Program-made: the position numbers and the translations under genes
Notes under the pieces: generated by a model
What the model was told of the DNA's origin: nothing
What the model saw: only the letters and a program-made list of their open reading frames with translations
Databases searched by the model: none
DNA from: Xylanimonas oleitrophica
GTDB lineage: Bacteria; Actinomycetota; Actinomycetes; Actinomycetales; Cellulomonadaceae
DNA length: 64,000 bases
Direction of reading: 5' to 3'
NCBI RefSeq assembly: GCF_003244315.1
Contig: NZ_QKWH01000002.1
Span: 1 to 64,000 of the forward strand
In this document: positions 4,538 through 19,790 of the stretch, one piece after another
How positions within the stretch are numbered: position 1 is the first letter of the stretch
Layout of the letters: each line of letters begins with the position of its first letter

Positions 4538-6238
<1,701 letters not shown>

Positions 6239-6602: not shown

Positions 6603-6742
6603 GTCGTCCCCTTCGCGCGGGCGCTGCCCGCCGTCGTGACCCGGACGGTCCGGGCGACGACGACGCTAGGGCCGGCGGGCCTGCCGGCGCAGGCTTCCTC
6701 CACAGGCTGTGGATCCCGCGACGGCGGAGGTGCGGGTGCCGG

Positions 6743-14814: not shown

Positions 14815-15672
14815 TCAGCCGCCCACCACGTCCGTGGTGACCGCCAGAGCCCGGCCGGCCTCGACGTCGGACCTGAGGCTCTGGAGGCGGGCCTCCGCGA
14901 AGCCGAGCGAGTCCGAGCCGAGGACCTGGTGCAGCGGTGCGCCTCCCGTGGTGGCGACGGTGATGATCGCGGCGGCAGCCTTCGCCGGGTCACCGAGCTG
15001 GGTGCCCGGCATCGCCTGGTGGGCCTCGGTCATCTCCCGGATCGCGGGGTAGGCGTCGCTCGTGGCGCTCGGCAGGCCGAGCGACTGCGGCCGCAGGAAG
15101 TCGGTCCGCATGTATCCCGGCTCGATCAGCGTGACACGGATGCCGTGGCCGGCCACCTCCGCGGCCAACGACTCGGTGAGGCCCTCCAGCGCGTACTTGC
15201 CGGCGCAGTACAGGCCCCAGCCGGGAAAGGACGTCAGCCCGAGGATCGACGAGACGTTGACGACGTGCCCGCTGCCCGCCTCCCGGAAGCCGGGCAGCAC
15301 CGCGCGCAGCACGTTCCAGACGCCGAAGACCTGGACGTCGAACATGGCTCGCGCCTCCGCGTCCGTGACCTCCTCCACGGCGGCGAGGAAGCCGTAGCCG
15401 GCGTTGTTGACGACGACGTCGAGGCCGCCGAAGCGCTCCGTGGCCGCGGCGACGGCGTCGCGCACCTGCCGCTCGTCGGCCAGGTCCAGCTCCAGCGGGA
15501 GCAACCTGGCCGTGTCGACACCGTCGAGCGCCGCGGTGAGGCGCTCGACCGACCGGGTGGTGGCGGCGACCGCGTCACCCCGCTCGAGGAGCTGCGTGAC
15601 GAGCTCGAGGCCGAGACCGCGTGAGGCCCCCGTGACGAACCACGTCGCCGGGCCGGTGGTGGGGTGGGTCAT
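14815..15672 (-). CDS. Short-chain dehydrogenase/reductase (SDR)
   Basis: A 285-residue classical SDR oxidoreductase. The cofactor motif TGASRGLG (residues 14-21) and VNNAGYG (88-94) are present. The catalytic set is Ser142 with YCAGK (Tyr155, Lys159). Arg40 after strand 2 suggests NADP(H) preference. It reduces or oxidises a carbonyl/alcohol substrate that cannot be identified. Start ATG 15672 follows AGGAGG with ideal spacing. It is transcribed divergently from the MmyB-type regulator at 15853, a common regulator/target layout. Confidence 0.92.
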   Translation of the reverse strand: MTHPTTGPATWFVTGASRGLGLELVTQLLERGDAVAATTRSVERLTAALDGVDTARLLPLELDLADERQVRDAVAAATERFGGLDVVVNNAGYGFLAAVEEVTDAEARAMFDVQVFGVWNVLRAVLPGFREAGSGHVVNVSSILGLTSFPGWGLYCAGKYALEGLTESLAAEVAGHGIRVTLIEPGYMRTDFLRPQSLGLPSATSDAYPAIREMTEAHQAMPGTQLGDPAKAAAAIITVATTGGAPLHQVLGSDSLGFAEARLQSLRSDVEAGRALAVTTDVVGG

Positions 15673-15852
15673 GTGCTCCTCCTGGAACGTGTACCTGGAT
15701 CGTGTGCCGGCGGTCGATCGCGCCGTGGATCCAGCGTCACGCCTCAGCCAGGCCACCGGGGGCCCACAACCGGCCCGGCTCGTCCTGGGCGCAGCAACCT
15801 AGGACTCGGCGGGCCAGGTCCCACCCGCACCCGGTCTGCCAGCATGGGAAGC

Positions 15853-16746
15853 ATGCCCACGCCGCACGAGGAGATCGCCGACTACCTGCGGCGTGCACGC
15901 GCCGCGGCGGACCCCCGGCGCGCCGGGCTGCCCGCCGACGGCCGGGTACGGCGCGTCCCCGGCCTGCGGCGCGAGGAGGTCGCGCTCCTCGCGGGCGTCT
16001 CGACCGACTACTACACCCGGCTCGAGCAGGGCCGCCGGATCGTGCCGTCCGTGCAGGTGCTCGACGCGATCGTGCGGGCCCTCGACCTCGACGAGGCCGG
16101 ACGGACCCACCTGCACGACCTCGTCGCAGCCGTAGGCCGGCCGCGCCCCCGAGCACGCACCACCGTCCAGCGGGTCCGGCCCGGCCTCCACCAGCTCCTC
16201 GAGTCGCTCCACACCCAGCCGGCGATGATCCTCGGGCGCCGCACCGACGTGCTGGCCGCCAACCGGATGGCACGGGCCCTGTTCGCGGACTTCCCACGGA
16301 TGGCTCCCCGAGAGCGCAGCTACGCCCGCTGGATGCTCCTGGCCGACGAGGCACGCGACCTCTTCCTCGACTGGGAGCTGCAGGCACGCAACGCCGTCGA
16401 GGCCCTGCGCCTGGACGCGGGGAAGACCCCCGACGACCCCGAGACGCAGCAGCTCGTCGGCGAGCTCTCCCTCGCCAGCCCCGAGTTCCGCCGCTGGTGG
16501 TCCGAGCACCAGGTCCACCAGCGCAGCCACGGCACCAAACGGCTGCGGCACCCCGTCGTCGGGGAGCTCGCCGTCGACTTCGAGACGCTCACCCTCCCCG
16601 GGGACGCCGAGCAGACCCTGTACGTCTACACGGCCGCCGCAGGCTCCCCCTCGCAGCAGTCGCTGGACCTGCTGGCGAGCTGGGCGCACCCGACGAGCGG
16701 CCTCGCCTCGGGCTCCGACGGCCCGCGGCGCACGACGACGGGCTGA
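15853..16746 (+). CDS. XRE-type regulator with MmyB ligand-binding domain
   Basis: A 297-residue transcription factor. An N-terminal helix-turn-helix spans about residues 30-80, containing GLRREEVALLAGVSTDYYTR and LEQGRRIVPS. The C-terminal MmyB-like domain (about 105-275) has the familiar motifs DVLAANRMARALF, FRRWWSEHQV and KRLRHPVVGELAVDF. MmyB proteins bind fatty-acid-like ligands and commonly control an adjacent SDR gene. The 180-nt region shared with the divergent SDR gene is the likely operator. ATG 15853 is preferred; an in-frame ATG at 15844 adds three residues. Confidence 0.9.
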   Translation: MPTPHEEIADYLRRARAAADPRRAGLPADGRVRRVPGLRREEVALLAGVSTDYYTRLEQGRRIVPSVQVLDAIVRALDLDEAGRTHLHDLVAAVGRPRPRARTTVQRVRPGLHQLLESLHTQPAMILGRRTDVLAANRMARALFADFPRMAPRERSYARWMLLADEARDLFLDWELQARNAVEALRLDAGKTPDDPETQQLVGELSLASPEFRRWWSEHQVHQRSHGTKRLRHPVVGELAVDFETLTLPGDAEQTLYVYTAAAGSPSQQSLDLLASWAHPTSGLASGSDGPRRTTTG

Positions 16747-16847: not shown

Positions 16848-18527
16848 TCACTTCACGACGCCCAGGTCCTCCGCGTCCACGATGCGGTAGGCGTACCCCT
16901 GCTCCGCCAGGAACCGCTGCCGGTGCGCCGCGAAGTCCTGGTCCACCGTGTCGCGCGCGACGACGGCGTAGAAGTGCGCCGTGCGGCCGTCGGCCTTGGG
17001 CCGCATCACACGGCCCAGACGCTGCGCCTCCTCCTGCCGGGAGCCGAACGACCCCGACACCTGGATCGCCACCGACGCCTCCGGCAGGTCGATCGAGAAG
17101 TTCGCCACCTTGGACACCACCAGCCGCGTCACCTCGCCGGAGCGGAACGCGTCGAACAGGCGCTGGCGCTCGCGGACCGTCGTCGCCCCCGTGATGAGCG
17201 GGGCGTCCAGGTGCTCGCTGAGCTCCTCGAGCTGGTCCAGGTACTGACCGATCACCAGCACCTGGTCGTCCGGGTGCTGCGCCACGATCTGCTCCACCAC
17301 CCGGTTCTTGCCCGCAGCGGTGGCCGCCAGCCGGTACTTGTCCTCCGGCTCGGCCGTCGCGTACACCATGCGGTCGTGCTCCGGCAGGGTGAGGCGCACC
17401 TCCACGCAGTCCGCCGGGGCGATGTAGCCCTGCGCCTCGATGTCCTTCCACGGGGCGTCGTACCGCTTGGGGCCGATGAGGGAGAACACCTCGTCCTCAC
17501 GCCCGTCCTCGCGCACCAGGGTGGCGGTCAGGCCGAGCCGGCGGCGGGCCTGCAGGTCCGCCGTCATGCGGAAGATCGGTGCGGGCAGCAGGTGCACCTC
17601 GTCGTACACGACCAGGCCCCAGTCGCGAGCGTCGAGCAGCTCCAGGTGGCTGTACACGCCCTTCCGCTTGGTGGTGAGCACCTGGTAGGTGGCGATGGTG
17701 ACGGGCTTGATCTCCTTGCGGGTGCCCGAGTACTCGCCGATCTCGTCCTCGGTGAGCGTGGTGCGGCGCACCAGCTCGTCCTTCCACTGCCGTGCGGAGA
17801 CGGTGTTGGTGACGAGGATGAGCGTCGTCGTGCCGCTCTTGGCCATGGCACCCGCGCCCACGATGGTCTTGCCGGCACCGCAGGGGAGGACGACGACGCC
17901 GGACCCGCCGTGCCAGAACCCGTCCACCGCCTGCGCCTGGTAGGGGCGCATCTCCCACGGCTTGGGGGCCTCGTCCGGTGTGCGCGGCGCGGCGACGGGG
18001 GACAGCGCGATGGGGTGCTTCTCGCCGTCCACGTATCCGGCCAGGTCCTCCGCGGGCCAGCCGAGCTTGACGAGCACCTGCTTGAGGTGGCCGCGCTCGG
18101 AGGGGTGCACCACGACCGTCTCGTCGTCGACGCGCTCGCCCACGAGGCCCGCGGTCCGCTTCGACTTGAGCACCTCGGCGAGCACGGCCTTGTCGGTGGC
18201 CTGCAGCACCAGGCCGTGCGTCGGGTGGGAGGTCAGCGTGAGCCGCCCGTACCGCGACATGGTCTCGGCCACGTCCACCAGGAGCGCGTGCGGCACCGGG
18301 TACCGGGAGAACTCGATGAGGGTGTCGACCACCTGCTCGGCGTCGTGCCCGGCCGCGCGCGCGTTCCACAGGCCCAGGTTGGTCAGCCGGTAGGTGTGCA
18401 CGTGCTCGGGGGCGCGCTCCAGCTCGGCGAACGGGGCGATCGCCCGGCGGGCCTCGTCGGCACGCGGGTGGTCGACCTCCAGCAGGAGCGACTTGTCGCT
18501 CTGGACGATGAGCGGGCCGTCGGCCAA
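16848..18527 (-). CDS. DNA repair helicase XPB (bacterial type)
   Basis: A 559-residue superfamily 2 helicase homologous to eukaryotic XPB/Ssl2, which unwinds DNA during nucleotide excision repair. An N-terminal XPB-like domain (about 1-185) precedes the helicase core. Walker A is PCGAGKT (215-221), the DEVH box starts at Asp309, and LTATL (333-337) runs into the RED motif Arg339-Glu-Asp341. Motif VI is QRLGRVMR, near residue 505. The TTG at 18527 is preferred because GGAAGGA lies just upstream and the product then starts at ADGPLIVQSD, the conserved beginning. An ATG at 18668 adds 47 non-conserved residues. Its 3' end is duplicated downstream. Confidence 0.94.
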   Translation of the reverse strand: MADGPLIVQSDKSLLLEVDHPRADEARRAIAPFAELERAPEHVHTYRLTNLGLWNARAAGHDAEQVVDTLIEFSRYPVPHALLVDVAETMSRYGRLTLTSHPTHGLVLQATDKAVLAEVLKSKRTAGLVGERVDDETVVVHPSERGHLKQVLVKLGWPAEDLAGYVDGEKHPIALSPVAAPRTPDEAPKPWEMRPYQAQAVDGFWHGGSGVVVLPCGAGKTIVGAGAMAKSGTTTLILVTNTVSARQWKDELVRRTTLTEDEIGEYSGTRKEIKPVTIATYQVLTTKRKGVYSHLELLDARDWGLVVYDEVHLLPAPIFRMTADLQARRRLGLTATLVREDGREDEVFSLIGPKRYDAPWKDIEAQGYIAPADCVEVRLTLPEHDRMVYATAEPEDKYRLAATAAGKNRVVEQIVAQHPDDQVLVIGQYLDQLEELSEHLDAPLITGATTVRERQRLFDAFRSGEVTRLVVSKVANFSIDLPEASVAIQVSGSFGSRQEEAQRLGRVMRPKADGRTAHFYAVVARDTVDQDFAAHRQRFLAEQGYAYRIVDAEDLGVVK

Positions 18528-18710
18528 TGCGGTTCCTTCCGTCGGGGTACCAGGATGCCCAACACGGCGTGGCCCTCGGGTGTTCCGCGCTGCGACGGAT
18601 GGGAGCAGGCGCGGCGCGGGCTTGTCGGGCCTCGGTCGGAGCGCATGGCGGGAAGGCGTCATCGTCATCCTTCCGCCTCACAAGTCCTCGAGTGCGGACC
18701 ACTCGCCGCT

Positions 18711-18727
18711 TTATGGTCTGACCATAA
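18711..18727 (+). promoter_or_regulatory. Perfect 17-bp palindrome, possible operator
   Basis: TTATGGTCTGACCATAA is an 8+1+8 perfect dyad, unusually A+T-rich for this genome. It lies 31 nt before the GTG of the secreted-protein gene and about 184 nt before the divergent XPB start. It is probably a regulator-binding site; its right arm could double as a -10. The regulator is unknown. Confidence 0.6.
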
Positions 18728-18757
18728 CGGTCAAGGGGTTCATTGGAAGGAGCGCAC

Positions 18758-19342
18758 GTGCGATTCGGGAGCGTTGTACGGGCTATGGCGGCGGGCTGTG
18801 TCGCAGCCCTGCTCGGGGTTGCGTGGGCTGCAGTTGCGCAGGCTGAGCCTGAGTCGGGCGCAGTCTCGGAGGAACCAGCCTTCGCTGGAACGAACGGTGA
18901 GTACATCGAGGCCGACTCCCCGGAGGAGGCGGTGCGCGTCTATGAGCAGAGCCGCAGGGGTGGAGCTGCGGTCCAGGCCACCTATGAGAAGGCGCCGTGC
19001 AAGCTGACGACTCAACACATGCACACGCGGACATCAGGGAACAAGAAGACGATCGGTCACAAGCCCACCACGGCGTGCTCCGTGCGGGTCAGCAAGATCA
19101 CGCACGGAAACAGCGCTGACTATCGATGGGGGCCCGGGCTCTGGGTGGCCGCGCACACGCAGGTTGCCTCCCGCAACAACCTGTCAAAGTGGACTCAGAC
19201 AGATTTCGAGTTCACGTGCGGCAAGATCCCCAGCGAGAACACGTCATGGGTGGGATGGACGGCAGGGACCGTCTTGTGGAACGGCAAGAACTACCACTCG
19301 ATCATCTCGACACCTCAGGCAGAGCTGAAGTGCAAGCCCTGA
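18758..19342 (+). CDS. Secreted four-cysteine protein, hypothetical
   Basis: A 194-residue protein with a typical signal peptide: RFGSVVR, a hydrophobic core VAALLGVAWAA, and likely cleavage after Ala29 (AQA/EP). The mature part has four cysteines (81, 107, 154, 192), enough for two disulfides, and is rich in Thr, Lys, Asn and Trp. GTG 18758 follows GGAAGGAGC with good spacing. Codon use is less GC-biased than in neighbours. With the odd placement between XPB and its partner gene this suggests recent acquisition. No family is recognised; a secreted antimicrobial, inhibitor or binding protein is possible but unsupported. Confidence 0.75.
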   Translation: MRFGSVVRAMAAGCVAALLGVAWAAVAQAEPESGAVSEEPAFAGTNGEYIEADSPEEAVRVYEQSRRGGAAVQATYEKAPCKLTTQHMHTRTSGNKKTIGHKPTTACSVRVSKITHGNSADYRWGPGLWVAAHTQVASRNNLSKWTQTDFEFTCGKIPSENTSWVGWTAGTVLWNGKNYHSIISTPQAELKCKP

Positions 19343-19764
19343 ACGATGACGGTGCCGGCCCGGCGACGTGCTTCGCGGTGTACGCGCGGTCCCCGAGGAA
19401 CGAACCCGTGGGCGATGTGCAGATCGACAACGTGGAGCCGGTCGTAGCGATCGCGGTCACCGAGGACGAGGCGCGGGAGCTCGCCGAGTCGATGGAGGCA
19501 CGCTTCTCTGAGCTCGAGGGACGGTGGGAAGAAGTCCCCCGGGCCGTCGACGGGCACGGCGTCAAGGATGTCACCCACCTCGTCTGCGTGGGCGAACCGC
19601 GCATCGCCGACGTCGTCGCGGCATTCGATGATCTGCGAGCTGCCGCGGCGTTTGCCGAAGAGGAGACGGTGCGCCGTGGGGGGCCGGCCCACGTGCTGTC
19701 GATGGCTGTGCACGAGCTCCATCTCGAGCGAGTGCCTCGACGGACGAGGTGGGGTTGGCGGTAG
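19330..19764 (+). CDS. Hypothetical protein downstream of the secreted protein
   Basis: An open frame of up to 144 residues overlapping the end of the secreted-protein gene by 13 nt. The likely body contains VVAIAVTEDEARELAESMEARF and VTHLVCVGEPRIADVVAAF, a mixed alpha/beta pattern with a helical C-terminal half. The start is uncertain: GTG 19330 would couple it to the gene before, while GTG 19378 gives 128 residues. No ribosome site is obvious for either. It lacks a signal peptide, so it would act in the cytoplasm. Function is unknown. It is probably co-transcribed with the secreted protein. Confidence 0.55.
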   Translation: MQALNDDGAGPATCFAVYARSPRNEPVGDVQIDNVEPVVAIAVTEDEARELAESMEARFSELEGRWEEVPRAVDGHGVKDVTHLVCVGEPRIADVVAAFDDLRAAAAFAEEETVRRGGPAHVLSMAVHELHLERVPRRTRWGWR

Positions 19765-19790
19765 CGGCTCGTGCGCGTAGGGGACGAGGC

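Follow-up and report, generated by a model that had tools for sequence, protein, structure and literature searches.

Most operators of the FadR subfamily of GntR regulators, including those of LldR and PdhR, are built from TKGT and ACMA boxes with three nucleotides between GT and AC (PMC4494728, in the portion of the article available). One of the best matching systems is LldR of Corynebacterium glutamicum, whose structure is 2di3 (PMC4494728, same portion). It is a FadR-type repressor of the lactate operon and of the fermentative gene ldhA, and its binding is inhibited by L-lactate (PMC7999487, in the excerpt available). In Escherichia coli an expanded genome-wide role in lactate utilisation and acid resistance has been described for LldR (PMC10272880, by its title), which sets a precedent for an LldR that controls genes beyond its own operon.

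The palindrome described here lies in a window of 64,000 nucleotides, the whole stretch of DNA that was analysed. It shares the core TGGT-CTG-ACCA, the odd centre and the GT-3 nt-AC arrangement with the operators of LldR, PdhR, GlcC and other members of the FadR subfamily, as far as the available portion of PMC4494728 describes them, whereas the outer bases of the putative operator are TTA...TAA. The set of genes predicted here (adhE, pflB, focA, nrdD, gap and phosphoketolase) differs from the C. glutamicum LldR targets named in the excerpt of PMC7999487. It differs also from the targets in the title of PMC10272880, which concern an organism of a different phylum. A limited search of the open-access literature surfaced no description of such a site set in actinobacteria. 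The protein encoded behind the palindrome has its described counterparts in LGFP-repeat proteins of two Rhodococcus plasmids (L049 and L050), in which the same C-terminal four-cysteine domain (27-31% identical) follows the LGFP repeats; unlike them, the window protein is a stand-alone secreted domain without such repeats.

Results

The features of the locus and the related sites elsewhere in the genome are collected in Table 1. The initial annotation had described a perfect 8+1+8 dyad just upstream of a gene for a secreted protein with four cysteines. This dyad is present, with its centre at 18719; it ends 30 nt before the GTG start codon, and the distance from the centre to the start codon is 39 nt. 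Comparable site-to-start distances (25 to 45 nt) were found for nrdD, focA and the VWA gene. The core TGGTCTGACCA has the form TKGT-N3-ACMA around an odd centre, and the operator-like character ascribed to the palindrome is borne out by this FadR-subfamily form. GGTCTGACC agrees with GGWCNGWCC, the core in the lldR promoters of relatives; the outer bases are TATG...CATA and not the TGTG...CACA of the LldR operator of the family. A scan with promoter and terminator consensus sequences gave no match. One might speculate that the A at position 2 creates a -10-like TATGGT overlapping the putative operator.

Table 1. Coordinates of the locus (window positions) and of related sites (contig positions)
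Feature	Position	Strand	Remarks
Gene of XPB/ERCC3-type helicase (by eye)	16848..18530	-	upstream neighbour, divergent from secreted-protein gene
Lower-GC islet	18690..19770	.	~61-70% against 74% in the window; edges approximate; flanked on both sides by helicase genes
Perfect 8+1+8 palindrome TTATGGTCTGACCATAA	18711..18727	.	core TGGT-CTG-ACCA; sequence read, consensus form from available portion of PMC4494728
Ribosome-binding site GGAAGGAG	18746..18753	+	read from sequence
Secreted-protein gene, 194 aa	18758..19342	+	GTG start 18758, stop 19340-19342; signal peptide by eye; conserved cysteines 81, 107, 154, 192
Putative small ORF, 128 aa	19378..19764	+	downstream, inside islet; no confident family
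Strong sites (two)	C27		beside divergent LutA-like gene and FCD-GntR gene
Strong site	C4:10006		beside adhE
Strong site	C22:264956		beside pflB
Strong site	C23:297495		beside formate/nitrite transporter, here called focA
Strong site	C8:1887		beside nrdD
Strong site	C5:33011		beside gap
Strong site	C11:99926		beside phosphoketolase
Strong site	C11:220182		beside thioredoxin-like gene
Strong site	C25:138758		beside VWA-domain protein gene
Two sites, 33 bp apart	C22:327605 and 327638 (to 327652; L007 ~6606-6653)		intergenic; first weaker, 17.5 bits

The 194-aa protein carries a further cysteine, Cys14, within the predicted signal peptide, which leaves four in the mature part as annotated. In favour of its predicted secretion are an apparent signal peptide, read by eye only, and the conserved cysteines; several homologues likewise start with hydrophobic stretches. 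The four mature cysteines are kept wherever the homologue sequence covers them, the exception being the last one in one fragment, and two disulfides are likely in the mature protein. The statement that the protein has no recognisable family holds for the curated libraries, since Pfam, NCBIfam and PHROGs gave no match, but distant relatives exist. At E <= 0.001, homologues were found in 11 of the order's 395 other genomes (the weakest, in G212, was not reproduced by tblastn and may be spurious) and in 3 of 393 other genomes of a class-wide draw, which overlaps the order set in some genomes. Six homologue loci in named genomes belong to Brevibacterium, Arthrobacter, Glutamicibacter and Corynebacterium. 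No homologue was found in other genomes of the same family among those drawn for the order search, nor in the phage collection searched.

A beta-sandwich was predicted with moderate confidence by AlphaFold from seven sequences (mean pLDDT 65.7; ~78 to 89 in the core blocks). The top TM-scores of this model in Foldseek were near 0.3. VIA-align placed factor XIII first, with Z up to 9.8 and an rmsd of 2.8 over 122 residues; the MspA porin (Z 9.1 to 9.3, 2% identity, rmsd 4.0 to 4.1) and GH2 enzymes were nearly level with it. On this model, the matches read as a common arrangement without a specific family. The proposed sequence and structure searches yielded homologues but no specific structural match. 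Judged by its homologues, the protein is a member of a small, patchily distributed actinobacterial family without a database name, and the analysis delimits this group of secreted four-cysteine proteins. The window protein is probably an accessory, horizontally acquired one that would act extracellularly or at the cell wall. The antagonistic or adhesive role suggested earlier is possible, but the findings speak neither for nor against it; the only hints at any function are secretion, the four conserved cysteines and the LGFP fusion in the two Rhodococcus plasmid proteins.

The GC content drops to about 61-68% over the secreted-protein gene. The alignment reached the ends of both helicase genes in 12 relatives; the two genes are spaced 12 to 175 bp apart in 11 of these and 870 bp in one, against 1263 bp in the window. 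At seven further loci the helicase alignment stopped short of the end or failed. The wider gap together with the lower GC fits a recently gained islet, and the secreted-protein gene was probably imported. The small ORF downstream gave only weak ASCH and acVLRF1 matches under the Pfam cut-offs.

In the whole genome (G000; 3.49 Mb, 28 contigs) the exact palindrome occurs once only, but the genome search proposed in the initial annotation revealed close variants that form a coherent set: with up to two mismatches, TATGGTCNGACCATA is found at five places including itself, against ~0.65 expected. The related sites of the wider genome have the consensus TGTGGWCNGWCCACA. The motif TGTGGTCWGACCACA was found twice exactly, five times with one mismatch and nine times with two (expected 0.004, 0.20 and 4.3, respectively), which amounts to 7 sites with at most one mismatch against 0.2 expected. 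When as many as three mismatches are allowed, the total of 33 places hardly exceeds the 25 of the reversed control and stays below the ~61 of the Markov model. A scoring matrix was derived from 28 sites at 22 lldR loci, all in other genomes, and with it 11 sites above 21.5 bits were found in the own genome, compared with ~0.27 expected. The gene names at these strong sites were taken from NCBIfam and Pfam; the phosphoketolase and PflB fragments stay under the whole-protein cut-offs because the proteins are cut by the locus end and match part of the model. The pair of sites on C22 is flanked by a uracil-DNA-glycosylase-type gene and a tRNA synthetase gene.

Membership of eno in the set is weak, since its site scores 16.6 bits, a level at which 4.7 sites are expected, and C27:24687 (beside a thymidylate kinase gene, by eye), C8:23035 and others are near chance level. 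In the C4:10006 region (L005 ~5990-6021), TGTGAAGACTTTCACA, which we take to be a Rex-like sequence, directly adjoins the GntR-type palindrome upstream of adhE, an arrangement that suggests joint redox and lactate control of this gene.

The motif is linked to lldR and adhE in relatives as well. Exact TGTGGTCWGACCACA is present in 20 of 61 genomes of the family, the own genome included, and at the 19 loci fetched from other genomes, to which these counts refer, it lies beside lldR and/or lutA in 13 cases, beside adhE in 4 and beside neither in 2; one of these two has a gene resembling, by eye, a zinc alcohol dehydrogenase. When lldR loci were picked through the regulator protein, without regard to the motif, 22 of 29 others carried a matching dyad near the gene start. 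The other 7 were without a site under the scan rule used, which required pairing at 6 or more of 7 positions together with a GntR-like half-site and left the two outermost bases free.

Discussion

The survey of GntR genes over the Pfam cut-off, in which FCD was assigned by Pfam for L022 and L021 and by eye for the others, revealed two FCD-GntR genes in the own genome, L022 and L021, both with GntR and FCD above the cut-off. The product of L022, which is located on contig C27 with the gene of a LutA-like Fe-S protein (LutA by eye) divergent beside it, has 2di3 as its best solved relative (E 4.1e-47); both its kinship to C. glutamicum LldR and its position beside lutA are those of an LldR. It reached 76.6 bits with the NCBIfam LldR model NF007741, below the cut-off of 311; this is presumably a model of enterobacterial LldR. 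The second gene, L021, encodes a VanR-like regulator and has a perfect inverted repeat, TAGACCTGAGG-3-CCTCAGGTCTA, just upstream (L021 1434-1458), which is probably its own operator. Since this different palindrome adjoins the L021 gene, L021 is disfavoured as reader of the 18711 site. The genes flanking the palindrome are helicases (by eye) and nothing regulator-like adjoins it, as had been noted, and for the distant regulator thus implied the LldR-like GntR protein on C27 is a good candidate, which replaces an anonymous factor by a concrete, testable name.

With the lldR-trained matrix, the 18711 site scores 18.1 bits and is the top site in the window, the next one having 9.0. Position 2 of both halves is A (TATGGTC), where G is found in 28/28 training sites, and on this account we do not class the site as an established LldR operator. 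Among 396 genomes of the order, TATGGTCWGACCATA in exactly this form is present in the own genome and in none of the other 395. The palindrome is also absent at the loci of homologous genes elsewhere (13 loci and 6 loci, with one protein common to both sets; some loci had short flanks, and the scan of the 6-locus set covered ~1 kb upstream only). Taken together with ~2 sites of at least this score expected per genome by chance, these findings leave the class of the site well supported, the LldR-like protein as the best guess for its reader and LldR control only likely.

We lean, with a confidence just past the midpoint, towards reading the palindrome as the operator of a GntR repressor of the FadR (FCD) subfamily; this is most likely the genome's single LldR-like protein, encoded beside lutA on C27, which would control the secreted-protein gene. 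The site itself, the class to which its sequence form assigns it, the genome-wide set of related sites and the link of the motif to lldR and adhE in relatives are observed; from here on we infer. Without ligand, a dimer of the LldR-like protein would sit on the palindrome, overlapping the promoter or lying immediately before it, and would keep the gene off. The ligand would be L-lactate, by analogy with C. glutamicum LldR; as lactate builds up, the dimer would be released from its site and the gene would be switched on together with the fermentation genes.

It is unlikely, yet deserves attention, that a different FadR/GntR-class regulator binds TATGGTCWGACCATA and that the symmetric change reflects another specificity, the regulator being perhaps islet-borne or lost with the donor. 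Both halves deviate identically from the LldR motif and the islet appears foreign, as this explanation would have it; however, just two FCD-GntR genes were found, the second with its own different palindrome, and the exact palindrome is confined to one genome of the order.

We give marginally less credence to a chance dyad that has no regulator and only accidentally resembles the LldR motif. In the window (74% GC) we counted 12 perfect odd dyads whose arms have at least 8 bases, where 5.05 +/- 2.04 were expected from 20 runs of a first-order Markov simulation. Symmetry of the 8+1+8 kind is therefore not rare in itself, and we rejected it as the measure of the palindrome's significance; the number of sites of 18.1 bits expected per genome also leaves room for coincidence. 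On the other hand, none of the other 11 dyads has five A/T pairs as TTATGGTCTGACCATAA does, and no dyad of this type appeared in the 20 simulations; the palindrome also matches the core exactly and stands 30 nt before a start codon, while only ~0.04 sites of such a score are expected in the window alone (scaled). The notable feature of the palindrome, as far as its letters tell, is thus its core, the published FadR-subfamily GntR operator form. A hairpin of the 5' leader RNA near the ribosome-binding site, which the distance of <=30 nt from the start codon and, by reading of the sequence, seven bases that could pair across a 3-nt loop would allow, is very improbable, since the related sites by fermentation genes have no such fixed position and those of relatives sit between divergent genes, the place expected of a DNA operator.

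If the LldR-like protein is the reader, as we prefer, a lactate-responsive fermentation regulon is predicted. It is conceivable, and we put this forward tentatively, that the LldR-like lactate sensor serves as a master regulator of fermentation in the family, and that the acquired secreted protein has been wired into its regulon, to be released upon build-up of fermentation acids. The predicted regulon would then cover alcohol, formate, anaerobic nucleotide synthesis, glycolysis and phosphoketolase.

Two minor observations may be added. A gene of an MmyB-type helix-turn-helix protein (by eye; window 15664-16746) lies ~2 kb from the palindrome, beyond a helicase, and is divergent from a short-chain dehydrogenase gene. 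In the relative G416 (L067), the exact GntR-type motif is found among tandemly arranged membrane-protein genes that resemble one another (MSTT...GLVAGLLMVVIGGATWG) and have no relation to lldR or adhE.
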